Shown: piece after piece, positions 1 through 15,275 of the stretch
Numbering within the stretch: position 1 is the first letter of the stretch
Layout of the letters: each line of letters begins with the position of its first letter
Assembly (NCBI RefSeq): GCF_008642315.1
Contig: NZ_CP029192.1
Location: 6,386,001 to 6,450,000 of the forward strand
From: Streptomyces venezuelae
GTDB lineage: Bacteria > Actinomycetota > Actinomycetes > Streptomycetales > Streptomycetaceae
Direction of reading: 5' to 3'
Length of the DNA stretch: 64,000 nucleotides
Position numbers and translations under genes: made by a program
Notes under the pieces: model-generated
Databases searched by the model: none
The model's input: the letters and a program-made list of their open reading frames with translations, nothing else
What the model was told of the DNA's origin: nothing

Positions 1-286
1 TCATGACCTTGATCTTCTGCTTTCCCGTGCCCGGCTTCTCGGCCGTCGCACGGACCAGCTTCTCCGGGTACTTCGTGTACCCGGGCTGCACGCCCTCGGC
101 GGTCGGCGCGAGGTCGGGGGTGGGGCCCTTGGCCGGGGTGTACGTCGGCCAGGGCGCCGCCTTCTTGCCGGCGTTGGAGACGTTGCCGCCGCCGCTCGAC
201 TCGGTGGAGCAGGCGGTGAGGACGGCGGGGGCCGCGAGGGCGGCGCCGCCGACGGCTATGGAGCGGAGCAGGGTGCGGCGCGACAT
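1..286 (-). CDS. ABC transporter substrate-binding lipoprotein, N-terminal part only
   Basis: The first 95 codons of a secreted lipoprotein are visible; the rest lies beyond the left edge. The start ATG gives an N-terminus MSRRTLLRSIAVGGAALAAP followed by a lipobox-like LTAC, so the protein has a twin-arginine-like signal and a lipidated cysteine. The mature part begins with a Ser/Gly-rich linker, as in sugar-binding lipoproteins of carbohydrate ABC importers. It lies directly downstream of two permease genes on the same strand, which makes it the solute receptor of that importer. The substrate cannot be read from this fragment. The order permease-permease-receptor resembles the LplB/LplC/LplA (YtcQ) arrangement. 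Confidence 0.8.
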   Translation of the reverse strand, partial: MSRRTLLRSIAVGGAALAAPAVLTACSTESSGGGNVSNAGKKAAPWPTYTPAKGPTPDLAPTAEGVQPGYTKYPEKLVRATAEKPGTGKQKIKVM

Positions 287-334
287 CGAGGAACCGGACA
301 CGGAGGGAGCCCTTCTGTACGACGAGGTGAGATA

Positions 335-1237
335 TCAGCTCTTGATGGCGCCGGTGAGCACGCCCTTGGTGAAGTACTTCTGCAGGAAGGGGTAGACGAG
401 CAGGATCGGCACGGTGGCGATCACCAGGACGGCCATCTGCGTCGTCTGCGGGGCGGAGACCATGCCGGCCTCGCTCAGGCCGGTGTCGGCGATCTGCGAG
501 CCGCCGATGACGTACGTGCGCAGCACCTGCGACAGCGGCCAGTGACCGGACTCCATGTAGATGGAGGCGTGGAACCAGGCGTTCCAGTAGCTCACGGCGT
601 AGAAGAGGGAGACCACGGCCAGCGCCGCCTTGGAGAGCGGGAGCACGATCCGCCAGAGGATCTGCCAGTCCCCGGCGCCGTCGAGCCTGGCCGCCTCGTA
701 CAACTCCTCGGGTATCCCCTGGAAGAAGCCGCGCAGCACGATCAGATTGAAGACGTTGATGAGTACGGGCGCGACGAGCGCGGCATACGTATCCATCATC
801 CCCATGCCCTTGACCAGCAGGAACGCGGGGATCATGCCGGGCGGGAAGAGGAACGTGAAGAGGATGAGCAGCAGCACGGGCTTGCCGCCGAAGACCCCGG
901 GGCGGGCCAGGGCGTACGCGAGGAAGGTCGTGCACGCGAGCGAGAAGAGCGTGCCGAGGACCGTGAGGCCGACGCTGACGCCGAGCGCCTTGGTGACGAT
1001 GCCGCCGTTGAGGATCGTCCGGTAGGCGCGCAGGGTCGGATCGCTCGGCCAGAGCACCCAGCCGCCGTTGTCCACGACCTCGCGGTTGGAGGCGAGGGAC
1101 GTCGAGACGATGACGAGGAACGGAATCAGGACGAGCGCGAGAACGACGGTCACCGCCACGGCCTTCGCGGCCTTGGTCGCGACCCGTGGTTTCTCCATCC
1201 AGGCGGGACGGCTGACCTGCTTGACACTGCCACTCAC
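335..1237 (-). CDS. carbohydrate ABC transporter permease (LplC/YtcP type)
   Basis: This 300-residue inner-membrane permease is one of the two channel subunits of a sugar importer. It has about six hydrophobic segments and the cytoplasmic EAA loop, seen as LYEAARLDGAGDWQILWRIV near residue 180, which docks to the ATPase. The start overlaps the stop of the upstream permease by 4 bp (ATGA), so the two are translationally coupled. No ATPase is nearby; such systems in Streptomyces usually share the MsiK ATPase (family knowledge, not seen here). The likely substrates are plant or fungal oligosaccharides, but the sequence does not decide this. Confidence 0.9.
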   Translation of the reverse strand: MSGSVKQVSRPAWMEKPRVATKAAKAVAVTVVLALVLIPFLVIVSTSLASNREVVDNGGWVLWPSDPTLRAYRTILNGGIVTKALGVSVGLTVLGTLFSLACTTFLAYALARPGVFGGKPVLLLILFTFLFPPGMIPAFLLVKGMGMMDTYAALVAPVLINVFNLIVLRGFFQGIPEELYEAARLDGAGDWQILWRIVLPLSKAALAVVSLFYAVSYWNAWFHASIYMESGHWPLSQVLRTYVIGGSQIADTGLSEAGMVSAPQTTQMAVLVIATVPILLVYPFLQKYFTKGVLTGAIKS

Positions 1238-2229
1238 TTGTAGACCCCCTGCTCGCCGAGCCGGTGGGCGATCCGGTTGGCGGTGAAGACGAGCGCCGCG
1301 CCGACGACGCCCTTGAACAGGCCCGCGGCCGCCGCGTAGCCGGTGTCGCCGCCGACGATGCCCTGCCAGAAGACGAAGGTGTCGAGCACCTCACCGACCT
1401 CGGGACCCACCGACTGCCGCTGCAGCAGCATCTGTTCGAAGCCGACGGAGAGGATGTCGCCGAGCCGCATGATCAGCAGCAGGATGATGATGGGCCGGAT
1501 GCTCGGCAGCGTGACGTGCCAGAACCGCCGCCAGGGGCCGGCCCCGTCGATCGCCGAGGCCTCGTACAGCTGCTCGTCGACCTGCATCAGCGCGGCGAGG
1601 AAGATGATCGTCCCCCACCCGGCGTCCTTCCAGATCACCTCGATGACGACGAGCGGTTTGTACGCGTCCGGGTTGCCGATGATGTCGACGATGTGCAGCC
1701 CCGAGTCACTCAGGAAGGTGTTCAACAGTCCTGTGTCGCTGAGGACTTGCTGGAACAGCGCGACCACGACGACCCACGACAGGAAGTGCGGCAGATAGAT
1801 CACGGACTGCGTGAAACGGCGCAGCAGATCCGACGTGAGGCTGTGCAGGAGCAGGGCGAGACCGAGCGGCGCCGGGAAGAAGAAGACGAGCTGCAGCACG
1901 GCGATGAACAGGGTGTTCCACGTCGCGTGCCAGAAGTCCGGGTCGCCGAACATCCGCGAGAAGTTCTCGGTGCCCACCCAGGGGCTGGCCCACAGTCCGT
2001 CGAAGGGGACGTACTCCTTGAAGGCCACCGCGTTGGCGACGAAGGCGCCGTAGTGGAAGACCAGGAAGTACGCGAGGCCCGGCACCATGAGCAGCACCAG
2101 GACACGCGTGTGCTGAAACCGTTTCCAGGGCGAATCCCGCCGTGCTTTGTCGCGTTCTGACCCGTTATTACTTCTCCCGGGCGGCTTCACCGCCTCGGTT
2201 TCCGCCCGTTCCTTCGTCACCGTCGGCAC
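1234..2229 (-). CDS. carbohydrate ABC transporter permease (LplB/YteP type)
   Basis: This is the partner permease of the sugar importer, about 331 residues from the chosen GTG start. A GGAGGGG ribosome-binding site sits 5 bp before that GTG, while an upstream ATG at 2385 has no such site and would add about 50 unstructured residues. The N-terminus is a charged cytoplasmic tail, then six membrane segments follow. The EAA loop appears as LYEASAIDGAGPWRRFWHVT around residue 220. The gene heads an operon with the second permease and the lipoprotein. Two LacI-type operator motifs lie upstream and a third is inside the first codons. Confidence 0.9.
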   Translation of the reverse strand: MPTVTKERAETEAVKPPGRSNNGSERDKARRDSPWKRFQHTRVLVLLMVPGLAYFLVFHYGAFVANAVAFKEYVPFDGLWASPWVGTENFSRMFGDPDFWHATWNTLFIAVLQLVFFFPAPLGLALLLHSLTSDLLRRFTQSVIYLPHFLSWVVVVALFQQVLSDTGLLNTFLSDSGLHIVDIIGNPDAYKPLVVIEVIWKDAGWGTIIFLAALMQVDEQLYEASAIDGAGPWRRFWHVTLPSIRPIIILLLIMRLGDILSVGFEQMLLQRQSVGPEVGEVLDTFVFWQGIVGGDTGYAAAAGLFKGVVGAALVFTANRIAHRLGEQGVYK

Positions 2230-2369
2230 GGCAACCCCTCCGTCGTCGGAATAAGGTGCCCGGAATCTAAAGCGGTTACTTCGCCCGGTCAACCCCCCTT
2301 GCCTCGCGCTCTCTTGACCGTCCTCCCGGATTGGTCCTAGCCTCCAGGCGCTGGTTGGTAACCGGTTAC
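2115..2369. promoter_or_regulatory. three LacI-family operator-like motifs (AANCGNTT)
   Basis: Three copies of the LacI/GalR core AANCGNTT occur in 255 bp. GTAACCGGTTAC at 2358-2369 is a perfect 12-bp palindrome. AAGCGGTT at 2270-2277 lies in TAAAGCGGTTAC. AACCGTTT at 2117-2124 lies inside the first codons of the permease gene. The first two flank the divergent promoters of the importer operon and the dehydrogenase gene, so one repressor could close both. No LacI gene is visible in the window. Confidence 0.5.
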
Positions 2370-2387
2370 TACGAGGGACGGTCACGC

Positions 2388-3431
2388 GTGGCAGATCAGG
2401 CAGAGCGGGCGGATCGGCGGGAGCGGAACGGGGGCGGGCCGCCGGGCGCGGCCCTGGCCATGGGCGTCGAGGTCGCGGACCGCGTGTTCGCGCCGGACCT
2501 CCGCGAACGGCTCGCCCGCAGCGTGGCGTTGGCCCCGGTGCTCCTGTCCGGGCCGCTGACGACGCCCGAGGCGCGGGCGGTACTCGCCGAGACGGAAATC
2601 CTGGTCACGGGGTGGGAGTGCCCGCCCCTGACCGGGGAGATCCTCGCCTTCGCGCCCCGGCTGCGCGCGGTCGTCCACGCGGCGGGCTCCGTCAAACCGA
2701 TGGTCACCGACGCGGTCTGGGACCGGGGTGTCGTCGTCTCCTCGGCGGCGGACGCGAACGCGGACCCCGTGGTGGCGTTCACCCTCGCGGCGATCACGTT
2801 CGCGGCGAAGGGCGCGCTGTCGGCCGCGGCCGGCTACGCCTCCGGGTGGCCGTCCTTCACCGCCCGCACCGGGGCGGACGCGCGCACGATCGGCGTCGTC
2901 GGCGCGTCGCGGATCGGGCGGCGGGTGATCGCGGCGCTCCGGGAGTCGGACGCGGGCAGCCGGATCCTCCTCACGGACCCGTACGTGGCCCCCGAGGAGG
3001 CGGCGTCGCTCGGCGCGGAACTCGTGGACCTGCCCGAGCTGTGCTCACGCAGCAGCATCGTGACGGTCCACGCGCCGCAACTCCCCGAGACAGAAGGCCT
3101 CTTGAGCGGCGACATGCTCAAGCTGATCCCCGACGGCGGGGTCGTCGTCAACACGGCCCGGGGGGCGCTCGTCGACACGGACGCGCTGGTGCGGGAGTGC
3201 GGGGCGGGACGCCTGGACGCGTTCCTCGACGTCACGGATCCCGAGCCGCTGCCCCCGGGGCACGCGCTCCTCCGCCTCCCCAACGTGCTGGTCACCCCGC
3301 ATGTGGCGGGGGCGCAGGGGAGCGAGGTGCGCAGGCTCGGGGAGTACGCGGTGGGGGAGGTCGAGCGCTATGTGTCCGGAGCGCCGCTCCGCGGCCGCCT
3401 CCTGCGCGAGGACCTGCCTCGTCTGGCCTGA
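2388..3431 (+). CDS. D-isomer-specific 2-hydroxyacid dehydrogenase
   Basis: This is a 347-residue NAD(P)-dependent dehydrogenase of the 2-hydroxyacid (phosphoglycerate dehydrogenase-like) family. The nucleotide-binding loop reads GVVGASRIGRRV. The catalytic triad positions are visible: Arg in NTARGALVD, Glu in DPEPLPPGHALL and His in TPHVAGA. The start GTG at 2388 follows GAGGGACGG; an internal ATG at 2460 is an alternative. The gene is divergent from the sugar importer and shares its operator-bearing spacer, so it probably works in catabolism of the imported sugar or of a derived 2-keto/2-hydroxy acid. The exact substrate is unknown. Confidence 0.85.
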   Translation: MADQAERADRRERNGGGPPGAALAMGVEVADRVFAPDLRERLARSVALAPVLLSGPLTTPEARAVLAETEILVTGWECPPLTGEILAFAPRLRAVVHAAGSVKPMVTDAVWDRGVVVSSAADANADPVVAFTLAAITFAAKGALSAAAGYASGWPSFTARTGADARTIGVVGASRIGRRVIAALRESDAGSRILLTDPYVAPEEAASLGAELVDLPELCSRSSIVTVHAPQLPETEGLLSGDMLKLIPDGGVVVNTARGALVDTDALVRECGAGRLDAFLDVTDPEPLPPGHALLRLPNVLVTPHVAGAQGSEVRRLGEYAVGEVERYVSGAPLRGRLLREDLPRLA

Positions 3432-3560
3432 GCGTCACGCAGCGGAACTGCGGGGCGGATTATTCAACAGCCGCAAGGAGGTTGTCCGAGGTACGGAGAA
3501 GTACGGTCGGTAGTCATATGCCTTCGGTAACGTGGGAGCCATCTGCCTCCGACTGGATGG

Positions 3561-5225
3561 GTGGTGGGAACCCGCGTCAGCGGGCTCCAAGCGATGGCTT
3601 CTTTGCCCGAGCAGACGAGCTCTTGTGGTGCAGGACCCGCCGCGCGGCCCGGTGCCCCGTACCCGGCGCTGACCGTGGACGCGGCGGGCATCATCCTGGT
3701 CCACAACAAGCAGGCCGCCGTGCTGCTCTCGCGCATCGCTGTCGGCGTCCCGCTGAGCGATGTCGCGCCCGCCTGGCTGGTCGAGGCGCATGTGCGGCAC
3801 ACCGGCGACACGGCCGAGCAGGCGCCGGCCTGGGCGGGCGGCAGGATCGGCGGGCGGCGCGTGACGGCACTGGCGGGGCCGGGCGCGGGCGGCGCGACGA
3901 CCTGGTGGCTGATCGCCGGTAGCGCCCGGGCCGGTGCCGCCAAGGAGTTGGCGCGCGAGCGCTCGCGTGCGGGCCTGCTCCAGGAGCTCTCCTCGGAACT
4001 GCTCGCCTCGCTCGACGTCGGGCGCTGCGCGGAGACGGCCGTGCGGCAGGCGGCCCGGCATCTGGCGGACGCGGCGGTCCTCGTCGGACCGGGCGACCGG
4101 AGCGGACACCCGGTGGCGCGCTGTGCCGCCGACGGGCCCGTGGTACGGGAGCGGATCGCCATGGACCCGGAGCAACTGCCAGGCCTGGCAGAGGCGTTGA
4201 CGGGGCTCCCCGCGGTGTCCTCGCGCTGGATCGACCCTCACGACGTGCCCGCATGGGCCGTGCCCGAGGGGTTCCCGGGTGGCGCCGCCGACATCGGCTC
4301 GGTCGTCGTGGCGCCCCTGCCCGGGCACGGCGCGCCCGCCGGATGCATCGTCCTGCTCCGGCACCGGGGCGAGGCGCCGTTCACCCCCGCCGAGGAGTCC
4401 TTCGCGCAGCTCTTCGCCGCGCGGGTGGGCGCCGCCCTGTCCGTGGCCCGCAGCCACGCCCGCCAGGCGTACTGCACCGATGTGCTGACGCGCGACCTGT
4501 TGCCACCGGCACTCGGCCCGGTGCACGGCATCTGCCTCTCCGGCCGGTACCGCGCCTCGGCCCCGGACGAGCACATCGGCGGTGACTTCTACGACACGTT
4601 CCCCGCCGGCACACCCGATGCGGAGACCGTCGCGGTGCTGGGTGACGTGTGCGGCAAGGGGCTGGAGGCCGCCGTCACCGCCGGGAGGATACGCAGCGCG
4701 CTGCAGGCGCTGGTTCCGTTCGCCGACGACCACACCCGTCTGCTGGCCCTCCTCAACCGGGCGCTGCTGTCCTGGGAGCGGACCCCCTTCGTGACCCTGG
4801 TCCTGGTCTCCGCCGTGCGCGAGGGCGCGCGGGTGCGGCTGCGCGTCTCCAGCGCGGGCCATCCCGTCCCCTTCGTCGTGTGCTCCGACGGCCGGGTGGA
4901 GGAGGTCCGGACCCGCGGCACGCTCATCGGCGCCATCGCCGACCTCGAGCTCAGGACCGCCGAAGTCCGCCTGGAGCCGGGTGAGACCTGCCTGCTGTAC
5001 TCCGACGGGATCACCGAGGCGCGCGGAGGACCGCTGGGTGACGTGATGTTCGGTGAGGACAGGCTGCGCTCCGAGCTGACCCGGTGCGCCGGGATGCCGG
5101 TGGAAGCGCTCACCGAACGGGTGCAGATGGTCGTCGCCCAGTGGGTGGGGCAGGGCCCGCACGACGACATGGCCGTCGTGGCGATCGGAGCGCCCAGGGA
5201 CGGCCGAGCCGGCAGAAGCGACTGA
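3561..5225 (+). CDS. PAS-GAF-SpoIIE type PP2C serine phosphatase
   Basis: This cytoplasmic regulatory phosphatase has about 554 residues (543 from the alternative ATG at 3594). Domain order is a short PAS-like segment (about 35-110), a GAF-like sensor (about 135-300) and a SpoIIE/RsbU PP2C domain (about 325-545). The metal-binding motifs are intact: GGDFYDTF, GDVCGKGLEAA, YSDGITEARG and HDDMAVVAI. Such enzymes usually dephosphorylate anti-sigma-factor antagonists. Neither an antagonist nor an anti-sigma gene is adjacent. The next gene, 62 bp downstream on the same strand, is a B12-binding protein, which suggests a sensor-output pair. Confidence 0.88.
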   Translation: MVGTRVSGLQAMASLPEQTSSCGAGPAARPGAPYPALTVDAAGIILVHNKQAAVLLSRIAVGVPLSDVAPAWLVEAHVRHTGDTAEQAPAWAGGRIGGRRVTALAGPGAGGATTWWLIAGSARAGAAKELARERSRAGLLQELSSELLASLDVGRCAETAVRQAARHLADAAVLVGPGDRSGHPVARCAADGPVVRERIAMDPEQLPGLAEALTGLPAVSSRWIDPHDVPAWAVPEGFPGGAADIGSVVVAPLPGHGAPAGCIVLLRHRGEAPFTPAEESFAQLFAARVGAALSVARSHARQAYCTDVLTRDLLPPALGPVHGICLSGRYRASAPDEHIGGDFYDTFPAGTPDAETVAVLGDVCGKGLEAAVTAGRIRSALQALVPFADDHTRLLALLNRALLSWERTPFVTLVLVSAVREGARVRLRVSSAGHPVPFVVCSDGRVEEVRTRGTLIGAIADLELRTAEVRLEPGETCLLYSDGITEARGGPLGDVMFGEDRLRSELTRCAGMPVEALTERVQMVVAQWVGQGPHDDMAVVAIGAPRDGRAGRSD

Positions 5226-5270
5226 GCCGACAGAGACGACGCCGGCAGAGACAACGCCGACAGAGACAAC
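5226..5270. repeat. three tandem 15-bp repeats between phosphatase and B12 protein
   Basis: Three imperfect copies of GCCGACAGAGACRAC lie head to tail at 5226-5240, 5241-5255 and 5256-5270. They fill the spacer and end just before the GAGGAAAGG ribosome-binding site of the next gene. A partial fourth copy may be the last codons of the phosphatase. Confidence 0.7.
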
Positions 5271-5287
5271 GAGGAAAGGCGATAAGG

Positions 5288-6406
5288 GTGAACCGTGGCA
5301 CAGAACCCCTTGAACTGGCCGAGCCGCGTGAGCAGTTGTGGGAGGCACTCTGCGAGGGGGAGGAGGATCGCGCCGTCGCCCTCGTGCGCAGCGCACTCGC
5401 CGCGGCGCGATCGGCGCAGGGGACTTCGGGCACCTCCTCCGACGAACGGACGCGGGCCGCGGGCGAACACGTCCTGCTCGAACTGATCGCCCCGTCCCAG
5501 GAGCGGCTGGGCCACGCGTGGGCGGCCGACGAGATCACGGTGGCGCAGGAACACGCCGCCACGGTGATCAGCGAGCGGTGCGTGGCGGCCGTCGCCGACA
5601 GCGCCGCGCCCGTGCTCGCCGCTCCGCCCCTGGGGCGGGTCCTGGTGTCGTGCGTCGGCGGCGAGTGGCACGCCCTGCCCGCGCGGCTGGTCAGCGAAGT
5701 GCTGCGGCTGCGGGGCTGGCGGGTCGACCATCTCGGGGCGCAGGTCCCCACCGAGCACGTGGTCGCGCACGCGCGCAGCACGCGTGCCCAGGCGGTGCTG
5801 CTGTCCTCGTCGATCCCCACGCTGCTGCCCGGCGCCCACAACGCGATCAGCTCCTGCCAGGGTGCCGGTGTCCGCGTGCTCGCCGGAGGCGCCGCCTTCG
5901 GACCGCGGGGGCGCTACGCCCGGATGATGCGGGCCGAATGGGCCGAGGACGCGCGCGGTGCGGCCGCCCTCCTGGACCGGAGTCCCACACCGCCCCCGCA
6001 GACGGCCCGCCCGCCCGATCTGGACCTGCCCCACCTGGCCGACCAGGAGTACACCATGGTCTGCCGCACCAGACTGCAGCTGGTCAAGCAGGCCCTCGCC
6101 GACGTCGAGGAGGGCTTTCCCGACATGCGCGGGTACAGCGAGTACCAGCGGGAGCGGACCGTCGAGGACATCGACCACATCGTCAATCACCTCGCCACGG
6201 CCCTGTACGTGGACGACCCCGACCTGTTCACGAGGTTCATCGTGTGGACCGCGGACATTCTGGCGGCCCGTGACGTCCCGCCGTGGTGCCTGCTTCCCGC
6301 CCTCGATTCGCTGCTGAACCGGCTCAAGGACTTCCCCCGCGCGGTCGGCGTCCTCGCCGCCGCCCGCCGCCTCCTCGATCCGCCCCGGTCCGCGAGGCCC
6401 ACCTGA
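5288..6406 (+). CDS. cobalamin-binding regulatory protein with CarH-like photosensor motif
   Basis: A 372-residue soluble protein. Residues about 10-105 form a helical segment holding W78-x9-E88-H89, the signature of the B12-dependent photoreceptors CarH/LitR. Residues about 115-225 are a B12-binding Rossmann domain with E126-W-H128 as the probable cobalt-ligand motif, then LLSSSIP and AGGAAFG as the later cobalamin loops. About 135 mostly helical residues follow, with no recognisable DNA-binding domain. The MerR-type helix-turn-helix of CarH is therefore absent. GTG at 5288 is preceded by GAGGAAAGG at good spacing. The gene is probably co-transcribed with the upstream PAS-GAF-PP2C phosphatase. 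Light or B12 sensing is inferred from the motifs. Confidence 0.8.
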   Translation: MNRGTEPLELAEPREQLWEALCEGEEDRAVALVRSALAAARSAQGTSGTSSDERTRAAGEHVLLELIAPSQERLGHAWAADEITVAQEHAATVISERCVAAVADSAAPVLAAPPLGRVLVSCVGGEWHALPARLVSEVLRLRGWRVDHLGAQVPTEHVVAHARSTRAQAVLLSSSIPTLLPGAHNAISSCQGAGVRVLAGGAAFGPRGRYARMMRAEWAEDARGAAALLDRSPTPPPQTARPPDLDLPHLADQEYTMVCRTRLQLVKQALADVEEGFPDMRGYSEYQRERTVEDIDHIVNHLATALYVDDPDLFTRFIVWTADILAARDVPPWCLLPALDSLLNRLKDFPRAVGVLAAARRLLDPPRSARPT

Positions 6407-6445
6407 TCCCTCACCGGTCGCACGGCGCGTGCGGCGGGATGGGCC

Positions 6446-7066
6446 CTACGGCTTCGCGCCCCGCTCCTTCAGCATCGACGACATCAGCTCGATCTCCGAC
6501 TCCTGCGACTCCACCATCCCCCGCGCCAGCCTCCGCTCCGCGGACACCTCGCAGCGGTCCACGCAGCCCTGCGCCATATGCACCCCGCCCCGGTGGTGCC
6601 GCGTCATCAGTTGCAGGTAGAGGATCTCCGCCTTCTTGCCGCTGAGTCCACCCAGCCGCTTCAGCTCCGCCCCCGTGGCCATCCCCGGCATCAGCGCGCC
6701 GTCCTCGCCCGGCGGCATGTCGCCCATGCCCATCCACTCCATCGGCGCCCCTTCCGGCACCTTCGGCAGCTCCCACAGGTCCAGCCAGCCGAGCAGCATC
6801 CCGCGCTGGTTGGCCTGGGTCTGGGCGATGTCGTACGCGAGACGCCGTACGTCCTCGTCATCGGTCCGGTCCCGCACGATGTACGACATCTCCACCGCCT
6901 GCTGGTGGTGGACCGCCATGTCGCGGGCGAACCCCGCGTCCGCCGACGAAGTCGCGGGCGAGCCGCCCGAGTCGGAGTCCGTCGCGGCCACCGCCGCCGT
7001 GATCCCGCCCCCGGCGACGACCGCGGCCACGACCGCCCCGACGATCCAGTTCGTACGCCGCCTCAC
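6446..7066 (-). CDS. DUF305 family secreted or membrane-anchored protein
   Basis: This 206-residue protein has one N-terminal hydrophobic segment (about 8-28, signal or anchor) and a DUF305 domain. The domain's His/Met motifs are visible as MAVHHQQAVEMS and MTRHHRGGVHMAQG, with many further Met residues between them. DUF305 proteins are extracytoplasmic four-helix bundles of uncertain function, often discussed in connection with copper. It is preceded on the same strand by a DUF3105 gene with a 49-bp gap, a pairing I recall as common in Streptomyces. No metal-responsive regulator is adjacent. Confidence 0.88.
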   Translation of the reverse strand: MRRRTNWIVGAVVAAVVAGGGITAAVAATDSDSGGSPATSSADAGFARDMAVHHQQAVEMSYIVRDRTDDEDVRRLAYDIAQTQANQRGMLLGWLDLWELPKVPEGAPMEWMGMGDMPPGEDGALMPGMATGAELKRLGGLSGKKAEILYLQLMTRHHRGGVHMAQGCVDRCEVSAERRLARGMVESQESEIELMSSMLKERGAKP

Positions 7067-7115
7067 GCCGACCCCCGCCTCACCGCGCCCGCTCCGCTCA
7101 CCGCGTTCACCGCAC

Positions 7116-7778
7116 TCACTGCCCGAGACCGTTCGTGCACGCCGCCCCCGGCTCCGGCGTCTGCTTGCCCTGGACGTAGGTGGAGAAGAACTCCTTGACC
7201 TTCGGGTCGTCCGCGCCCGTGACGGTCCGCTGGTGCGCCCACGCGGTCAGCATGACGGGGTCCTTCTGGTCCTTCACGGGGCTCATCAGCGAGTACGGCG
7301 TGGCCTTGACCTTCGCTTCCAGCTTCTTCAGGTCGGCCGGCTCCGCCTTGTCGTTGTAGGTGACCCATACGGCGCCGTGCTCCAGGGAGTGCACGGCGTT
7401 CATCTCCGGGATCTCCTTCTTGTAGACGTCGCCGTTGCAGTTCATCCAGACCTGATTGTGGTCCCCGCCGACGGGCGGCGTCATCGGATAGTCCACGGTC
7501 TTCGTGACGTGCGTACGGCCGAGCTTGCCCCAGCTCTTCTCGCCGTCCGCGGAGACCTTGTACTTCGGCCAGTCCTGCGCGCTCTTCGAGTCCGAGCCGG
7601 AGTCGTCGGAGGCCTTGTCGACGAGGAAGTAGCCGCCCACGCCGAGCGCCGCGACGACGACCGCGCTGACCGTGATCGTCAGGGCCCGGCCCCGGCGGTC
7701 GCGTGCGCGCTCCGCCCGGCGCATCTCCTCTATCCGGGCCTTGCGGGAAGCGTTGCTCGTGTTCTTGGCGGAACCCAT
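7116..7778 (-). CDS. DUF3105 family membrane-anchored protein
   Basis: This 220-residue protein has a basic cytoplasmic N-terminus (about 1-30), one membrane segment (about 33-55) and an extracytoplasmic DUF3105 domain. Typical family pieces are visible, such as PPVGGDHNQVWMNC and NAVHSLEHGAVWVTY, with conserved His and Cys residues. The biochemical role of the family is not established. It is the first gene of a two-gene unit with the DUF305 gene downstream and may assist it at the membrane. The ATG at 7778 is preceded by a GAAGGACAC purine stretch. Confidence 0.85.
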   Translation of the reverse strand: MGSAKNTSNASRKARIEEMRRAERARDRRGRALTITVSAVVVAALGVGGYFLVDKASDDSGSDSKSAQDWPKYKVSADGEKSWGKLGRTHVTKTVDYPMTPPVGGDHNQVWMNCNGDVYKKEIPEMNAVHSLEHGAVWVTYNDKAEPADLKKLEAKVKATPYSLMSPVKDQKDPVMLTAWAHQRTVTGADDPKVKEFFSTYVQGKQTPEPGAACTNGLGQ

Positions 7779-7939
7779 GGTGTGTCCTTCTGCGGAAAGG
7801 GACGGACGGGACGACGAACGAGTCCGCTGATCGTAATCGGAGGGAGGCCCGTACTACAGAGCGTCCTCCCGACTCCGTCCGCCGACCGGCGTGACGGAGC
7901 AATTTGAGCCACCGCCGCGCATTCCCTACGCTCGACCGT

Positions 7940-8386
7940 ATGCGGCTCATGCGCTCCACCGACCTGGCACTGCGCACCCTCATGCGCCTCGCCGTGGTGG
8001 ACGGCGCGGACCCCGCCCCCACGACGCGTGAAGTGGCGGCCGACATGGCGGTGCCGTACACCCACGAGACGAAGGTCGTCGCCGAGCTCCAGAAGATGGG
8101 TCTCCTCGAGGCCCGCCGGGGCAGGGGCGGCGGCCTCGCGCTGACCGAGGCGGGGCGCGGGGCGTCGGTCGGCGCGCTGGTGCGGTCCTTCGAGGGCACG
8201 GGCGACGTCGTGGACTGCGAGAGCGGCACGCCGTGTCCGCTGAACTCGGCATGCCGCCTGCGTGACGCGCTGCGCAGGGCGCAGGAGGCCTTCTACGCGT
8301 CGCTGGACCCCCTGACGGTGGCGGACATCGTCGCGAGCCCGACGGGCCCGCTCCTCCTGGGCATCACGACCCGCCCCACCGACTGA
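7940..8386 (+). CDS. nsrR: Rrf2-family nitric oxide-sensing repressor NsrR
   Basis: This 148-residue winged-helix repressor has its iron-sulfur cysteines at C93, C99 and C105 when the ATG at 7940 is used. From memory, this is exactly the numbering of the [4Fe-4S] ligands in S. coelicolor NsrR, which supports the start. The helix-turn-helix lies at about 28-60. NO damages the cluster and releases the protein from DNA. The neighbour, ending 9 bp away on the other strand, is the flavohemoprotein gene hmp, a known NsrR target, and an NsrR-like operator precedes hmp. No clear copy of the operator was seen in front of nsrR itself. Confidence 0.9.
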   Translation: MRLMRSTDLALRTLMRLAVVDGADPAPTTREVAADMAVPYTHETKVVAELQKMGLLEARRGRGGGLALTEAGRGASVGALVRSFEGTGDVVDCESGTPCPLNSACRLRDALRRAQEAFYASLDPLTVADIVASPTGPLLLGITTRPTD

Positions 8387-8395
8387 AGGGCCGGG

Positions 8396-9613
8396 TCAGC
8401 TCCGGGCCAGCCACAGGTCGGGCCCGAACACCTCGTAGTGGACGTCGGCCGCGGCGACTTTGCGCTCGATCAGCTGGAAACGCACCGCCCGCATGAACGG
8501 CAGCGGACCGCACAGGTACGCGCGCGTGCCGGCCGGGATCGGCGGCAGGGCCGCGAGATCGGCGTACCCCGTGAGCTCCGCGGGGTGGCCCGCCTCCGGC
8601 CGCTCGTAGAAGAAGTACGCCGAGCCGTCCGGGAGTTTGGCGGTGTACGCCTCGTGGTCGGCCCGCAGCGCGTGCGCCGCGGGGGAGCGGTCGGCGTGGA
8701 CGACGGTGACGGGCGCCCGGTGCCCCGACGCGGCCAGCTGCTCCAGCATGGCGATCATCGGAGTGACGCCGATCCCCGCGGAGGCGAGCAGCAGTGGAAC
8801 GTCCGCGTCCGTCTCGCCGAGAGCGAGATCGCCGTACGGCGGAGAGACACGGAGGACGTCGCCCTCCCGCACGCGCGCGTGCAGGTGGTTCGAGACCTCG
8901 CCCTCGGGCGCCCCCGCCTCACCCCGCACCCTCTTCACACAGATCTGCCGCACCTCGGACCCGCCGCGGCCCGCCCCGGTGAGGCTGTACTGCCGTATCT
9001 GCCGGGCCCCGTCCTTGAGTTGCACCTGCACGGACACGTACTGCCCCGGCCGGAAGCCCGGTGCCGGCGCCCCGTCGACGGGCCGCAGCCGGAACGTGGC
9101 GACGTCCGCCGTCTCCTCCACGCGCCCGACGACCTCCCACGCACGCCACGTGTCCTCGCCCGCCGTGACGCCCTGCCCGGCGTAGAGGCGGGCCTCGATG
9201 GCGATGAGGGCGTTGGCCATGAGCCAGTAGACGTCGTCCCAGGCTGCGGCGGTCTCGGGCGTGAACGCGTCGCCGAGCACCTCGACGATGGCGGCGAAGA
9301 GGTGACGGTGCACCGTCTCGTACTGGTCGGGGGCCACGCCGAGCGAGGCGTGCTTGTGCGCGATGCGGTTCAGCATCACGTCGGGCCGCTCGTCGGGGTG
9401 CTCCACCAGGTGCGTCGCGAACGCGGCGATGGAGCCGGCCAGGGCCTGCCGCTGTGTCCCCGCGGCCTGGTTGCCTCGGTTGAAGAGGTCCCTGAGCAGC
9501 TCGGGACGGGCCGTGAAGAGCCGGTCGTAGAAGCGCTCGGTGATCTCGCCGATCGCCGCTCCGACGACGGGAAGCGTGGCGCGGACGGTCGCGGCCGACT
9601 GTTCTGACAGCAA
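8396..9613 (-). CDS. hmp: flavohemoprotein (nitric oxide dioxygenase)
   Basis: This 405-residue cytosolic enzyme oxidises NO to nitrate with O2 and NAD(P)H. It has a globin domain (about 1-145, distal FYDRLF tyrosine, proximal His in AHKHASLG), an FAD domain (RQYSLT motif) and an NAD-binding domain (GIGVTPM). The start is a TTG at 9613 placed 6 bp after GAGGAG; the longer frame back to 9703 has no such site and adds non-homologous sequence. The gene is convergent with nsrR and carries a 23-bp NsrR-like inverted repeat about 90 bp upstream. Confidence 0.92.
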   Translation of the reverse strand: MLSEQSAATVRATLPVVGAAIGEITERFYDRLFTARPELLRDLFNRGNQAAGTQRQALAGSIAAFATHLVEHPDERPDVMLNRIAHKHASLGVAPDQYETVHRHLFAAIVEVLGDAFTPETAAAWDDVYWLMANALIAIEARLYAGQGVTAGEDTWRAWEVVGRVEETADVATFRLRPVDGAPAPGFRPGQYVSVQVQLKDGARQIRQYSLTGAGRGGSEVRQICVKRVRGEAGAPEGEVSNHLHARVREGDVLRVSPPYGDLALGETDADVPLLLASAGIGVTPMIAMLEQLAASGHRAPVTVVHADRSPAAHALRADHEAYTAKLPDGSAYFFYERPEAGHPAELTGYADLAALPPIPAGTRAYLCGPLPFMRAVRFQLIERKVAAADVHYEVFGPDLWLARS

Positions 9614-9969
9614 CGTGGGCTCCTCAGTGCCTGGTGACGAGCAGGGCGTGGGCAGGGCTCGGTAAGGGAGGGTTGCGCCCCCCTTGTCTGTTTCGATCCT
9701 CAAATTAGCATCTGATATGCAAGTTATAGCGACGGGGGTACGGATGACGGGCCGGCAAGGGGCCGGACACGGCGCCGGGACCCGCCACCGTTACGGCCGA
9801 CCGGCGCAGCAGGCACTATGGGCACAGAGCGGCAAGAGAAACGGCTCGAACGCCGCGGCACGGGGCCCGCAACGCGCACGAAACCAAGGAGTGGGATGCT
9901 CGTGTGCCCGGTGTGTCCCGGGGCGCGAATGCAGGTGGCCTGACCAGCAAGGATGGGTGGAAGCGGAAG
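9614..9969. other. hmp-glnA2 divergent spacer
   Basis: This 356-bp spacer separates the divergent hmp and glnA2 starts. Besides the NsrR-like operator at 9703-9725 I see no gene in it. A long frame reading into glnA2 from 9904 has no ribosome-binding site and unlikely composition. No GlnR-like four-part box was found in front of glnA2, in contrast to glnII and glnA. Confidence 0.5.
9703..9725 (-). promoter_or_regulatory. NsrR-type operator upstream of hmp
   Basis: This is an 11-1-11 bp inverted repeat. The arms AATTAGCATCT and ATATGCAAGTT pair at 8 of 11 positions around a central G. Architecture and AT-rich GCAT content fit NsrR sites. It lies 90 bp upstream of the hmp start, and the NO sensor gene nsrR is next to hmp. 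It stands out from its surroundings because it is AT-rich. Confidence 0.7.
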
Positions 9970-11331
9970 ATGAACAAGCAGCAGGAATTCGTGCTCCGTA
10001 CGTTGGAGGAGCGCGACATCCGGTTCGTGCGCCTGTGGTTCACGGACGTCCTCGGCTTCCTCAAGTCGGTGGCCGTGGCCCCGGCCGAACTGGAACAGGC
10101 CTTCGACGAGGGCATCGGCTTCGACGGCTCGGCCATCGAGGGCTTCGCCCGGGTGTACGAGTCGGACATGATCGCCAAGCCGGACCCCTCGACCTTCCAG
10201 GTGCTGCCCTGGCGCGCTGAGGCCCCCGGCACGGCCCGCATGTTCTGCGACATCCTGATGCCGGACGGCTCACCGTCCTTCGCGGACCCGCGCTACGTGC
10301 TGAAGCGCGCCCTCGCCAAGACCTCCGACCTGGGCTTCACCTTCTACACCCACCCCGAGATCGAGTTCTTCCTGCTGAAGGACAAGCCGCTGGACGGCTC
10401 GCGGCCCACCCCCGCCGACAACTCCGGCTACTTCGACCACACCCCGCAGAACGTGGGCATGGACTTCCGCCGCCAGGCCATCACGATGCTCGAATCCATG
10501 GGCATCTCCGTGGAGTTCAGCCACCACGAGGGCGCCCCCGGTCAGCAGGAGATCGACCTCCGCTACGCCGACGCGCTCTCCACGGCCGACAACATCATGA
10601 CGTTCCGCCTGGTCATGAAGCAGGTCGCCCTGGAACAGGGGGTGCAGGCCACCTTCATGCCGAAACCGTTCTCCGAGCACCCCGGCTCCGGCATGCACAC
10701 CCACCTCTCCCTCTTCGAGGGGGACCGCAACGCGTTCTACGAGTCCGGTGCCGAGTACCAACTCTCCAAGGTCGGCCGCTCCTTCATCGCGGGCCTGCTG
10801 CGGCACGCCGCGGAGATCTCCGCGGTCACCAACCAGTGGGTGAACTCGTACAAGCGCATCTGGGGCGGCTCCGAGCGCACCGCGGGCGCGGGCGGCGAGG
10901 CACCCTCGTACATCTGCTGGGGCCACAACAACCGCTCCGCGTTGATCCGCGTCCCGATGTACAAGCCCGGCAAGACGGGTTCCGCGCGCGTCGAGGTCCG
11001 CTCGATCGACTCGGGCGCCAACCCCTACCTGACGTACGCGGTGCTGCTCGCCGCCGGACTCAAGGGCATCGAGGAGGGGTACGAGCTGCCGCCGGGCGCC
11101 GACGACGACGTATGGGCGCTGCGCGACGCCGAGCGCCGCGCGCTGGGCATCGAACCGCTCCCGCAGAACCTGGGCGAGGCGATCGCGCTCATGGAGAAGT
11201 CCGAACTGGTCGCCGAGACCCTCGGCGAGCACGTCTACGACTTCTTCCTGCGCAACAAGAAGCAGGAGTGGGAGGAGTACCGCTCCGAGGTGACGGCCTT
11301 CGAGCTCCGCAAGAACCTGCCGGTTCTGTAG
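9970..11331 (+). CDS. glnA2: glutamine synthetase-like gamma-glutamylpolyamine synthetase GlnA2
   Basis: This 453-residue protein has the type I glutamine synthetase fold. Active-site segments are visible: GFDGSAIEGFA, PEIEFFLL, FMPKPFSEHPGSGMHTHLS and an Arg-rich VEVRSIDSGANPYL. The C-terminal adenylylation tyrosine loop of GlnA is not preserved. The closest remembered protein is S. coelicolor GlnA2 (SCO2241, 453 aa), shown there to glutamylate polyamines rather than make bulk glutamine. The ATG at 9970 follows GGAAGCGGAAG. glnE lies 0.8 kb downstream in the same direction. Assignment to GlnA2 rather than another paralogue rests on length and synteny. Confidence 0.85.
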   Translation: MNKQQEFVLRTLEERDIRFVRLWFTDVLGFLKSVAVAPAELEQAFDEGIGFDGSAIEGFARVYESDMIAKPDPSTFQVLPWRAEAPGTARMFCDILMPDGSPSFADPRYVLKRALAKTSDLGFTFYTHPEIEFFLLKDKPLDGSRPTPADNSGYFDHTPQNVGMDFRRQAITMLESMGISVEFSHHEGAPGQQEIDLRYADALSTADNIMTFRLVMKQVALEQGVQATFMPKPFSEHPGSGMHTHLSLFEGDRNAFYESGAEYQLSKVGRSFIAGLLRHAAEISAVTNQWVNSYKRIWGGSERTAGAGGEAPSYICWGHNNRSALIRVPMYKPGKTGSARVEVRSIDSGANPYLTYAVLLAAGLKGIEEGYELPPGADDDVWALRDAERRALGIEPLPQNLGEAIALMEKSELVAETLGEHVYDFFLRNKKQEWEEYRSEVTAFELRKNLPVL

Positions 11332-11456
11332 GGGAGCGACCCCGCCGTTGGGGGTGCGACCGCCGGCCGCGGCCGCGCTGCGCCAAGGAGCACGCGCGGA
11401 GGCCGGCGGACGCCGGGGTCGGGCCGGAACCCGCAGATGAGGACACGCCCGCCCCG

Positions 11457-11597
11457 GTACTCGCCCGCGACGAGGCGCTTCTCGTCCTGGCCACGGAGTG
11501 CCACCCGAGGACGCTGCGGCAGATGCGCTGGACCAACACCATGATCAAGAACATCGCGCCGCAGATCCTCGCCGTCGGCGTCAGTCCTGCGCGGTGA
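11457..11597 (+). pseudogene. short coding-like remnant after glnA2
   Basis: This frame (codons starting at 11457) ends at a TGA at 11595-11597 and shows strong third-position G/C bias. It includes residues such as MRWTNTMIKNIAPQILAV that are unusual for a chance frame in GC-rich DNA. No start codon with a ribosome-binding site precedes it, and its last 17 bp overlap the end of the VOC gene on the other strand. It looks like the 3' end of a decayed gene. I do not recognise the family. Confidence 0.35.
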
Positions 11598-12018
11598 TCG
11601 CCTCACGCAGCGGCGTAGTCGCCCGCACCCGGTACTCCTGGATGGCCCAGCCGTTGCCGTCCGGGTCGCTGAAGTACATGAACGTGCCGCCGTCCTGCGG
11701 CGCGTGCTGCACCGGCTCGGAGACGTCGAGGCCGCGAGCGACCAGCTCGGCGTGCGCGGCCTTGGCGTCGGCGACGCACAGCTGCAGGCCCTGGTAGGAG
11801 CCGACGGGCGGTCTCGGGCCCGCCATCGACTCCCAGAGCGCGTCGCCCGCAAGCGCGATCGAACAGCCCGACCCCGGCGGGGTCAGCTGGACGATGCGCA
11901 TGCCCGGCATCACCTCCGTGTCGATGTCGACGTGGAAGCCCAGCTTGTCGCTGTAGAACTCCTTCGCCCGGTCGATGTCACTGACGGGCAGCGGGATCAC
12001 TTCGAGTGTGTATTCCAT
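11581..12018 (-). CDS. VOC-family (glyoxalase/bleomycin resistance-like) protein
   Basis: This 145-residue protein has the paired beta-alpha-beta-beta-beta modules of the vicinal oxygen chelate fold. Typical ends are visible: LEVIPLPVSDIDRAKEFYSD at the N-terminus and YFSDPDGNGWAIQEY at the C-terminus. Candidate metal or substrate ligands include the Glu of AIQEY. Members range from glyoxalases to antibiotic-binding proteins, and the substrate cannot be predicted. It stands alone, divergent from glnE with about 130 bp between starts, and its 3' end overlaps a short gene remnant. Confidence 0.85.
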   Translation of the reverse strand: MEYTLEVIPLPVSDIDRAKEFYSDKLGFHVDIDTEVMPGMRIVQLTPPGSGCSIALAGDALWESMAGPRPPVGSYQGLQLCVADAKAAHAELVARGLDVSEPVQHAPQDGGTFMYFSDPDGNGWAIQEYRVRATTPLREAITAQD

Positions 12019-12146
12019 GGCCCGCAGTACACCAGTGAGTTGAGCCCCTGTCAGCCGTCGCGTGCAGGGTGTCGCGGGGCGGCCGGGCGCCGGTTCGCCG
12101 GGGAGGCCTTAGGCTCGGGCCGAGGAGTGATCGAACGGAGGCTCGC

Positions 12147-15140
12147 ATGACGGTGCCGCAAGGGCGACGAAGCAGTACGTTCACGCGGCTGCTGCGGCAC
12201 GGCTTCACCGACCCGTCCGCCGCGGAGCGGCTCCTCGACGACCCGGCGCTGAGCGCCCTGCGCGACGATCCGCTGCTCCTGGACGCGCTCGGCGCCACCG
12301 CCGACCCCGACCTGGCCCTCCTCGGCCTGGTCCGGCTCGTGGAGGCGCAGGACGACGACCTCGGACGGCGCGAGCTGCTCGACACCCTCGTCACCGCCAA
12401 ACCCCTGCGCGACCGCCTCCTCGGCGTGCTCGGCGCTTCGGAGGCCCTCGCCGACCACCTGGCCAGGCACCCCCTGGACTGGCGTGCCCTCGTCACCTAC
12501 GAATCGGCCGACCTGCACCCCGGCGTGGAGGAGTTCGAGCGGGGTCTCGCCGACGCCGCCGACCCCGAGTCGCTGCGCGTCGCCTACCGCCGCTGCCTGC
12601 TCTCCATCGCGGCCCGCGACGTGTGCGGCACCACCGATGTCGCCGAGGCGGCGGCCGAGCTCGCGGACCTCGCGACGGCGACGCTGCGGGCGGCGCTCGC
12701 CCAGGCCCGCGCGGCCGCGCCCGAGGACGCCGCGCAGTGCAGGCTCGCGGTGATCGCCATGGGCAAGTGCGGCGGCCACGAGCTGAACTACGTGTCCGAC
12801 GTCGACGTCATCTTCGTCGGCGAGGCCACCGAGGGCACCGACGAGGACAAGGCGATGCGGGCCGCGACCCGCATCGCCTCGCACATGATGCGGATCTGCT
12901 CGGAGACGAACGCCGAGGGCACCATCTGGCCCGTCGACGCGAACCTCCGCCCCGAGGGCAGGAACGGCCCCCTGGTGCGCACGCTCTCCAGCCACCTCGC
13001 GTACTACCAGCGCTGGGCGAAGACCTGGGAGTTCCAGGCTCTGCTGAAGGCCCGTCCGGTCGCGGGCGACCTCGCGCTCGGCGAGGAGTACGTCGAGGCG
13101 CTCGCGCCGCTCGTCTGGCAGGCCGCCGAACGCGAGAACTTCGTGCCCGACGTGCAGAAGATGCGGCGCAGGGTCGTCGAGAACATTCCGGTGGGCGAGG
13201 TGGACCGGGAGCTGAAGCTCGGCCCCGGCGGACTGCGCGACGTCGAGTTCGCCGTGCAGATGCTCCAGCTGGTGCACGGCCGCAGCGACCGGTCGATCCG
13301 CAGCGGCTCGACGCTCGTCGCCCTGCAGGCGCTCGGCGCCGGCGGATACGTGGGGCGCGTGGACGCCGCCCAGCTCGACGACGCGTACCGCTTCCTGCGC
13401 TCCCTCGAACACCGCATCCAGCTGTACAAGCTGCGCCGCACCCATCTCGTGCCGGAGGACGACGCGGACCTGCGGCGCATCGGCCGCTCGCTGGGCATGC
13501 GCACCGAGCCGATCACCGAGCTCGGCCGTGCCTGGAAGCGGCACACCTCCGTGGTCCGCCGACTGCACGAGAAGCTCTTCTACCGCCCGCTGCTCGACGC
13601 CGTCGCCCAGCTCGCCCCCGGCGAGGCACGGCTGAGCACGGAGGCGGCCCGCGAACGCCTCGTCGCACTCGGCTACGCGGACCCCAGCGCGGCGCTCAGG
13701 CACCTGGAGGCACTGGCGTCCGGTGTGACCCGCAAGGCCGCCATCCAGCGCACCCTGCTGCCGGTCCTCCTCGGCTGGTTCGCGGACTCCGCCGACCCCG
13801 ACGCGGGCCTCCTCGGCTTCCGCAAGGTGTCCGACGCGCTCGGCAAGACCCCCTGGTACCTGCGGCTCCTTCGGGACGAGGGCGCCGCCGCGGAGAACCT
13901 CGCCCGCGTCCTCTCCGCCGGACGCCTCGCCCCCGACCTGCTGCTTCGCGCCCCCGAGGCCGTCGCCCTCCTCGGCGACCAGGGCGGCCTCGAACCGCGC
14001 GGCCGCGCCCACCTGGAGCAGGAGATACTGGCCGCGGTGCGCCGCGCGGACGGCGCCGAGCAGGCCGTGACGGTGGCGCGCGGGGTGCGGCGCCGCGAGA
14101 TGTTCCGTACCGCCGCGGGTGACCTCATCGGCTCGTACGGCACGGAGGACAACCCCGCCGAGGCCGACCCCGGCACGCTCGTGGACCGGGTGGGCGACGC
14201 CGTGTCGGACCTGACGGCCGCCACCCTCGCGGGCACGCTGCGCGCCGTCGTCCGCGAGGGCTGGGGCGACACGCTCCCCACCCGCTTCGCCGTCATCGGC
14301 ATGGGCCGCTTCGGCGGCCACGAGCTGAGCTACGGCTCGGACGCGGACGTCCTCTTCGTGCACGAGCCGCGCGAGGGCGCCGACGAACAGGAGGCGGCCA
14401 AGGCCGCGGCGAAGGTCGTCGCCGAGATGCGCAGACTCCTGCAGCTCCCCTCCGCCGACCCGCCGCTGCTCATCGACGCCGACCTGCGCCCGGAGGGCCG
14501 CAGCGGCCCGCTGGTGCGCACCCTGCGCTCGTACGAGGCGTACTACCGCCGCTGGTCCCTCGTCTGGGAGTCCCAGGCGCTGCTGCGGGCCGAACCGGTC
14601 GCGGGCGACGAGGAGCTCGGGCGCGCCTTCATCGGCCTCGTCGACCCGCTGCGCTACCCGGCGGAGGGCCTCGGCGAGGACGCGGTCCGCGAGATCCGCC
14701 GCCTCAAGGCCCGGATGGAGGCGGAGCGCATGCCGCGCGGCGCCGACCCGACCCTCAACGCGAAGCTGGGCCGCGGCGGTCTCTCCGACGTCGAGTGGAC
14801 CGTGCAGCTCCTGCAGCTGGAGCACGGCTGGGCCGAACCGGGCCTGCGCACGACCAGGACCCGCGAGGCCCTGGCCGCGGCCTGCGCGGCGGAGCTGATC
14901 CCGACGCAGGACGCGGCGACCCTCGACGAGGCGTGGGTCCTGGCGGCGCGCGTGCGCAACGCGGTCATGCTGGTGCGCGGCCGGGCGGGCGACACGTTCC
15001 CCTCCGACGGCCGTGAACTGGCGGCGGTCGCCCGGTACCTGGGCTACGACCCGGGCCACGTCGGCGAGATGCTGGACGACTACCGGCGCATCACGCGCAG
15101 GGCGCGGGCCGTGGTGGAGGAGCGGTTCTACGGGGCGTGA
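12147..15140 (+). CDS. glnE: bifunctional glutamine synthetase adenylyltransferase/adenylyl-removing enzyme
   Basis: This 997-residue cytosolic enzyme attaches AMP to, and removes it from, the regulatory tyrosine of GlnA-type glutamine synthetase. It contains two nucleotidyltransferase halves, each with the G-G-x-x-L-x-x-x-S-D-x-D signature: GGHELNYVSDVDVIFVGE in the N-terminal (deadenylylating) half and GGHELSYGSDADVLFVHE in the C-terminal (adenylylating) half. The length matches actinobacterial GlnE. The ATG at 12147 is preceded by CGGAGGCTCGC. Its probable target glnA is also in this window (55.8-57.2 kb), with the target tyrosine intact. Confidence 0.96.
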   Translation: MTVPQGRRSSTFTRLLRHGFTDPSAAERLLDDPALSALRDDPLLLDALGATADPDLALLGLVRLVEAQDDDLGRRELLDTLVTAKPLRDRLLGVLGASEALADHLARHPLDWRALVTYESADLHPGVEEFERGLADAADPESLRVAYRRCLLSIAARDVCGTTDVAEAAAELADLATATLRAALAQARAAAPEDAAQCRLAVIAMGKCGGHELNYVSDVDVIFVGEATEGTDEDKAMRAATRIASHMMRICSETNAEGTIWPVDANLRPEGRNGPLVRTLSSHLAYYQRWAKTWEFQALLKARPVAGDLALGEEYVEALAPLVWQAAERENFVPDVQKMRRRVVENIPVGEVDRELKLGPGGLRDVEFAVQMLQLVHGRSDRSIRSGSTLVALQALGAGGYVGRVDAAQLDDAYRFLRSLEHRIQLYKLRRTHLVPEDDADLRRIGRSLGMRTEPITELGRAWKRHTSVVRRLHEKLFYRPLLDAVAQLAPGEARLSTEAARERLVALGYADPSAALRHLEALASGVTRKAAIQRTLLPVLLGWFADSADPDAGLLGFRKVSDALGKTPWYLRLLRDEGAAAENLARVLSAGRLAPDLLLRAPEAVALLGDQGGLEPRGRAHLEQEILAAVRRADGAEQAVTVARGVRRREMFRTAAGDLIGSYGTEDNPAEADPGTLVDRVGDAVSDLTAATLAGTLRAVVREGWGDTLPTRFAVIGMGRFGGHELSYGSDADVLFVHEPREGADEQEAAKAAAKVVAEMRRLLQLPSADPPLLIDADLRPEGRSGPLVRTLRSYEAYYRRWSLVWESQALLRAEPVAGDEELGRAFIGLVDPLRYPAEGLGEDAVREIRRLKARMEAERMPRGADPTLNAKLGRGGLSDVEWTVQLLQLEHGWAEPGLRTTRTREALAAACAAELIPTQDAATLDEAWVLAARVRNAVMLVRGRAGDTFPSDGRELAAVARYLGYDPGHVGEMLDDYRRITRRARAVVEERFYGA

Positions 15141-15275
15141 CCGTACGGCCCCGAGGTCCGCGGGAGCCGTCCGCGCTGCCTCAACAGACCCGCAACGCTG
15201 CCCTTGCGCCCCTGGTCCGGCGGCCGCTCCATGGCGTATTCAGGAAGAGTTCGAGTCAGTCTGCCTGGAGGCCCC

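Follow-up and report, generated by a model that had tools for sequence, protein, structure and literature searches.

We analysed a window of 64,000 nucleotides (64 kb) of Streptomyces venezuelae (NCBI RefSeq assembly GCF_008642315.1, contig NZ_CP029192.1, positions 6,386,001 to 6,450,000 of the forward strand), which holds a pair of neighbouring genes on its + strand. The first gene (3561..5225, +) encodes a serine/threonine phosphatase of the SpoIIE type, (PAS)-GAF-PP2C, with 554 residues as read and an uncertain exact start codon. The second (5288..6406, +) has a GTG start, encodes 372 residues and is almost certainly a stand-alone photocobilin, a member of a published family, as judged from phmmer, Foldseek and a structural model. 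The original prediction had placed the second gene directly after a SpoIIE phosphatase gene, and this holds, with a gap of 62 nt. A ribosome-binding-site-like sequence, GAGGAAAGG (5271..5279, +), lies eight bases ahead of the GTG. Most of the gap is occupied by a 15-nt tandem repeat (GCCGACAGAGACAAC, 3.1 copies, 90% match, 5226-5271). We propose that the two genes are probably the input side of a partner switch gated by light, with the phosphatase under the control of the photocobilin.

The predicted photocobilin

Pfam matched B12-binding_2 at residues 14-101 of the second protein and B12-binding at residues 116-207 (6.6e-16). The former falls in a four-helix bundle predicted to cap adenosylcobalamin (5309..5617, +, residues 8-110, with W78 and E88-H89), the latter in a B12-binding Rossmann domain (5633..5977, +, residues 116-230, with the putative lower ligand H128 and with H157). 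Alignment to the PDB entry 8j2x predicts a biliverdin-binding globin domain in the C-terminal part (6044..6376, +, residues about 253-363, with D294 and W320). Pfam gave no match to MerR or any other helix-turn-helix domain in this protein, and the identity of a CarH/LitR regulator was ruled out by the missing MerR domain. The protein had been predicted to be a CarH-type B12 photosensor devoid of the MerR DNA-binding domain. Its motifs W78-x9-E88-H89 and EWH128 (E126-W-H128) are where they were said to be and the DNA-binding domain is indeed missing, but the bilin-binding globin had been overlooked.

The best phmmer match in the PDB was SasPcob (8j2x/8j2w, residues 13-363, E 2.8e-73), followed by AbPcob (8j2y, 8.7e-28) and then by CarH, over the B12 part only. 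The AlphaFold2 model (pLDDT 91.7) matched 8j2x with a Foldseek TMq of 0.81 across 355 columns, and its C-terminal helical globin-type domain matches those of the solved photocobilins. The chromophore residues named for SasPcob are Trp61, Glu71-His72, His108, His137, Asp270 and Trp296 (PMC10979010). In the phmmer alignment, counted by hand (chain index plus 5 gives the numbering of the paper), W61, E71, H72, H108, H137, D270 and W296 correspond respectively to W78, E88, H89, H128, H157, D294 and W320, and nine residues separate W78 from E88, the same spacing as between W61 and E71. All seven are invariant in the 82 proteins compared (80 relatives, the second copy of the host genome and the window), so the match is not due to chance. 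The weak binding of biliverdin by AbPcob most likely results from a His at the position of Asp270 (PMC10979010). With this Asp kept, the protein of the window would be expected to sense red light via biliverdin as well as green light.

The phosphatase

Pfam identified a GAF domain (4023..4439, +, residues 155-293; PF01590, E 4.3e-6) and SpoIIE (PF07228, residues 353-542, E 1.4e-40) in the first protein. The PP2C catalytic domain extends over residues about 316-545 (4506..5195, +; VIA-align range). Its residues D342, D362, D482-G483 and D535-D536 are each identical in at least 95% of the 80 partner phosphatases of the relatives described below. We take D342, D362, D482, D535 and D536 to be metal-binding, as in the family. 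SpoIIE-type phosphatases are of the kind that turns on stress genes. The alpha-helical linker that precedes PP2C in SpoIIE/RsbU-type proteins is present as a long predicted helix between GAF and PP2C (4386..4493, +, residues 276-311; secondary structure of the model), a candidate signalling linker.

The PAS-GAF-PP2C architecture originally put forward was recovered by Pfam for the GAF and SpoIIE parts, and the Pfam search of the phosphatase gave no PAS match. In the predicted model, residues 36-119 have a PAS-like order of two strands, helices and three strands, and phytochrome photosensory modules were among the weaker Foldseek rows. This suggests a PAS-like N-terminal domain (3663..3917, +, residues about 35-119). 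The window has a second SpoIIE-type phosphatase domain (20484-21023), which falls outside the photocobilin-linked group in the PP2C tree.

Conservation of the gene pair

A scan of genome contigs gave 333 relatives, of which we retained the best 80, a set that consequently favours close kin. It includes Streptomyces, Streptacidiphilus, Actinacidiphila, Saccharothrix, Nocardia, Nocardioides and mycobacteria. A SpoIIE match was found directly upstream on the same strand in all 80, though only as a 79-bit fragment in L024. Phosphatase and photocobilin are neighbours in all 78 loci where both genes were called, and overlap in 57 of these pairs, by exactly 4 nt in 54. Three pairs of rows at zero distance (L033/L088, L018/L089 and L082/L090) are probably the same genomes in two collections.

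Wider surveys gave the limits of this association. Within the family Streptomycetaceae, 24 of 61 genomes have a photocobilin. Outside the host, the phosphatase is directly upstream in 28 of 30 places (the misses being L104 and L110) and a STAS gene comes next in 22 of 30. In the phylum, 70 of 396 genomes had matches, many covering the B12 part only. Among the 20 longer matches from outside the family six were linked, all of the same class as the host; no phosphatase was directly upstream of the 14 photocobilins from other classes, nor of ten control places of the B12 type from other classes, namely the ten best-scoring such rows of the phylum survey. In one control, L138, a PP2C match was located some 870 nt downstream. 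Two others (L136 and L139) have a weak globin-like match in the B12 frame, which in L139 precedes the B12 part.

The class survey gave matches at E 1e-38 or better in 63 of 394 genomes. Its 72 rows correspond to 69 distinct places, since two rows are one split gene and two are tandem second copies. The phosphatase is upstream in 58 of the 69 (45 of 56 newly fetched and all 13 seen before), with an upstream limit of 1600 nt to allow for tandem photocobilins; the limit was 400 nt for the family and phylum places. We scored as misses L188, cut by a contig end, and L205, a degraded remnant. Among the 56 new places, 38 of the 39 that scored at least 230 bits are linked, and the sole miss is L205. 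The expectation that the two genes would rarely co-occur in other actinobacteria, which would have gone against the original prediction, thus fails.

Some places are unusual. L170 and L171 have two tandem photocobilin genes between the phosphatase and the STAS gene. L204 is decayed, its photocobilin match being split across two frames, as is L205, where the matches are confined to fragments of the N-terminal part of the phosphatase and of the C-terminal part of the photocobilin. L112-L115 form a divergent linked group with one genus code, in which D-W-H replaces E-W-H and no His aligns with His157; the phosphatase adjoins the photocobilin. In three of the 69 class places (L194, L196 and L202) the best match covers the B12 part only. 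The B12 protein of L196, perhaps a bilin-free variant, is phosphatase-linked, has no recognised globin part and has STAS matches on both sides of the pair.

We also considered whether the motif L/I/V-PHLxDxEY, which lies between the B12 and globin domains, might be a docking site. It occurs in 103 of 116 linked rows and in one of 16 unlinked rows, but it stays an idea, because most of the unlinked rows are distant ones and, judging from the alignment, SasPcob appears not to have the motif.

Phylogeny and proposed output of the pair

The host has 28 SpoIIE places in total. In a tree of PP2C domains, 41 linked phosphatases, our own selection from all linked loci, were separated by a branch (SH-aLRT 97) from 23 other SpoIIE domains of the host; the remaining three of these 26 (L210, L217 and L228) had no usable domain. 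A FastTree tree likewise set 92 linked phosphatases apart from 19 unlinked ones, of which those from the 80 loci were picked below 120 bits, a bias that the tree of host genes avoids. The roots of the trees are midpoints and many inner forks are weak. By these comparisons the pairing of phosphatase and photocobilin is real and old, and the linked phosphatases tested form one lineage. In ten divergent linked phosphatases PP2C was matched in all, GAF in seven (five above the Pfam cut-off) and PAS in none. Since PP2C is constant, GAF variable and PAS absent in these ten, the sequences hint that the photocobilin depends on the helix-PP2C part.

The gene next after the photocobilin encodes a STAS (anti-anti-sigma) protein in 67 of the 80 relatives, with a 4-nt overlap in 60 of the 67. 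Pfam matched STAS in 66 of 71 genes tested at this position (including that of the second copy of the host), and the Asp-Ser-x-Gly site of these proteins is conserved at 90% or more. The second copy of the host (G000:C1, L084) is a complete phosphatase-photocobilin-STAS operon.

Of 82 loci scanned, 11 hold a gene for a SigB/F/G-type sigma factor, at distances of up to about 8 kb, with a twelfth match (89 bits) left uncounted, and 25 hold anti-sigma-like HATPase genes. Neither count has a background rate, and the queries were themselves taken from scanned loci, four for sigma and three for anti-sigma. The order in L010 is sigma-STAS-HATPase-SpoIIE-photocobilin-STAS-HATPase, and L013 and L016 have a sigma gene after the phosphatase-photocobilin-STAS trio. 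The sigma genes of these three loci pass NCBIfam TIGR02980. The partner-switch pathway originally suggested gains partial support from these relatives, and none of these genes was found in the window itself.

The tight coupling to the STAS gene would also fit another arrangement, with the STAS protein or the anti-sigma factor as the direct target of the photocobilin. The phosphatase would then act alongside it on that STAS protein, driven by the PAS-GAF signals of its own sensor domains. The phosphatase is, however, the more constant partner, kept where STAS is missing (the window and L004-L008). No STAS match adjoins the best photocobilin in 25 of the 45 linked class places; L170 and L171 are included in the 25, with their STAS gene placed after the second of the two tandem photocobilins. 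In the FastTree photocobilin tree (132 rows), adjacency changes three times for SpoIIE versus 12 times for STAS. We thus regard direct action on the STAS protein as unlikely.

In the same tree the window groups with L004-L008 in a six-member clade (support 100) that lacks STAS. The STAS gene was most likely lost in this clade, because it is nested in a mostly STAS-bearing group. With STAS missing from the operon, the target of the phosphatase must lie elsewhere. A candidate substrate for the phosphatase of the window is the STAS protein of the second operon of the host (G000:C1:232895-233245). It ranks first among 12 host matches to the family profile, with 161 bits versus 61 for the runner-up, although its score is raised because it is itself a row of the profile.

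Surroundings of the locus

Upstream of the phosphatase gene, on the same strand, lies a gene for a D-2-hydroxyacid dehydrogenase, and the gene downstream of the photocobilin has the opposite orientation and encodes a DUF305 protein. A promoter scan of 3300-6600 gave a single promoter-like site and a single terminator-like site; both lie on the - strand and were not used. At 7904-9703 a gene for an Rrf2-type regulator and one for a flavohemoglobin-like protein with globin, FAD and NAD domains face each other, an arrangement known from responses to nitric oxide.

Discussion

That many related bacteria have retained the two genes side by side suggests a stress switch under the control of light. 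We propose a chain that would run from light through the photocobilin, the phosphatase, the STAS protein and the anti-sigma factor to the sigma factor. The photocobilin would bind adenosylcobalamin (H128 as ligand; W78, E88 and H89 as cap) and biliverdin (D294 and W320), and be sensitive to green and red light. As in SasPcob, illumination would cleave the Co-C bond, and the dimer present in the dark would fall apart into monomers. The photocobilin would contact the (PAS)-GAF-PP2C phosphatase encoded upstream and alter its activity, probably via the GAF-PP2C helix, a step that we model on the action of RsbQ on RsbP and of RsbT on RsbU. The phosphatase would dephosphorylate a STAS anti-anti-sigma protein, usually encoded by the third gene of the operon in relatives. 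The STAS protein would capture the anti-sigma kinase, and a SigB/F/G-type sigma factor would be freed to act on its presumed regulon. In the clade of the window the target would be encoded elsewhere, possibly in the second SpoIIE-photocobilin-STAS operon of the host. We consider a functional tie between photocobilin and phosphatase very likely, and the full sigma-factor switch likely.

For the class we lean, by little, towards a broader view, in which actinobacteria have a widespread and old green/red receptor for sigma partner switching and one PP2C lineage co-evolved with photocobilins that serve as its light-driven activator or brake in the place of RsbT or RsbQ. With STAS lost in the clade of the window, two light-sensing phosphatases may then converge on one STAS protein.

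A number of observations weigh against a light-gated switch built on this pair. Conserved order and co-inheritance are linkage, not contact. No single frame holds both PP2C and photocobilin in 198 loci (82, 60 and 56), and we dropped a PP2C-photocobilin fusion as proof of contact. Since the ten B12-type controls all belong to other classes, that comparison cannot separate class from protein type. Below 230 bits, seven of 17 class places are linked and ten have no phosphatase. Of the places matched over the B12 part only, L202 is unlinked and L196 is linked. The whole 64-kb window gave no match to STAS, to an anti-sigma HATPase or to a SigB-type sigma factor. The operon of the window has no STAS gene, and none stands beside the photocobilin in L004-L008 either. 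Heme oxygenase (PF01126) occurs in 18 of 24 genomes with a photocobilin versus 24 of 37 without, so six carriers have no biliverdin source of this family. These figures give no clear link and we dropped biliverdin supply as support.

The direction of the light effect is another such point. When a foreign diguanylate cyclase domain was supplied in trans, it was activated by lit SasPcob carrying both chromophores; if biliverdin was left out, activation came from the dark form and the lit form seemed to be inhibitory (PMC10979010). AbDPcob was inhibited in the dark and activated by light (PMC10979010). Because the sign of the trans test reversed without biliverdin (PMC10979010), no direction of the light effect can be predicted.

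The six carriers without PF01126 would be expected if the protein were a sensor of cobalamin level or redox state, one that controls the phosphatase through ligand exchange or the loss of adenosylcobalamin instead of photolysis. Soil hyphae also spend much time in the dark. Yet the residues for CarH/photocobilin photochemistry and for biliverdin are invariant in all 82 proteins. There was also no Rfam match at gathering scores in positions 1-16000 of the window, hence no cobalamin riboswitch at this threshold, and control by such a riboswitch was ruled out within this scope. We rate such a sensor as improbable too, just below direct action on the STAS protein. That the genes are mere neighbours, kept together by co-transcription or shared inheritance alone, would agree with the lack of fusions and with the 28 SpoIIE domains that make such genes common in the host, but it is highly improbable, since chance adjacency is still rare with 28 domains in 8.9 Mb and the tested linked phosphatases are one lineage with many family codes and differing N-terminal parts.

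A dedicated phosphatase lineage and a STAS protein would give stand-alone photocobilins a concrete partner, substrate and read-out. If the light-gated switch is real, non-phototrophic soil actinomycetes would have a bilin/B12 route from visible light, including red, to a SigB-type response, separate from CarH/LitR, and Streptomyces work would gain a compact red/green-light phosphatase switch. We dropped a link to the light-induced pigment of mycobacteria: the available part of a paper on M. kansasii (PMC9861118) mentions no cobalamin, SigF, photoreceptor, anti-anti-sigma factor or phosphatase.

The pair can be compared with several known systems. CarH/LitR regulators share the B12 light-sensing core with the second protein; they have a MerR domain for DNA binding and no bilin globin, whereas the photocobilin is the reverse. 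The host has one gene of this type, with MerR and B12-binding_2 by Pfam (L085, G000:C1:1574000-1588000, 6398-7378, -), and no SpoIIE match was found in that locus. By eye, we take its neighbours to be an ECF sigma factor and a photolyase. The photoglobin-B12 proteins of Schneider et al. 2022 reportedly have the same domain pair as the second protein and are said to be a predicted light-sensing hub.

Published photocobilins (SasPcob of Saccharothrix syringae, PDB 8J2W/8J2X, and AbDPcob) share with the second protein the B12 four-helix bundle, the Rossmann domain and the C-terminal bilin globin. The function of the stand-alone ones is described as less clear, and SasPcob was reported to potentially interact with STAS, SpoIIE and PP2C proteins, from STRING (PMC10979010). 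In the available text of that paper, STRING gives the only hints (PMC10979010), whereas here a dedicated phosphatase lineage and a STAS protein are tied to the photocobilin. The original statement that no system with this pair had been described is thus partly right: photocobilins and the STRING-based hint of SpoIIE/STAS contact are already published (PMC10979010). Beyond that paper, no title or abstract opening that we found describes this operon, and priority is uncertain.

YtvA (LOV-STAS) likewise brings light into the SigB pathway, but as a flavin receptor fused to STAS; the input of red light to SigB in Bacillus subtilis requires RsbP/Q (PMC3019169). In RsbT-RsbU, too, a partner protein switches the phosphatase through a helical linker, but RsbT is released by stress and is not a photosensor (PMC12143880). 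RsbQ-RsbP of Bacillus subtilis similarly places a stand-alone sensor beside a PAS-linker-PP2C phosphatase that activates SigB (PMC3183031). RsbQ is an alpha/beta hydrolase and its gene comes first in the rsbQP operon (PMC3183031), whereas the partner of the phosphatase of the window is a B12/bilin photocobilin and no such hydrolase. By analogy, RsbQ-RsbP would be the best model for the photocobilin-phosphatase pair.

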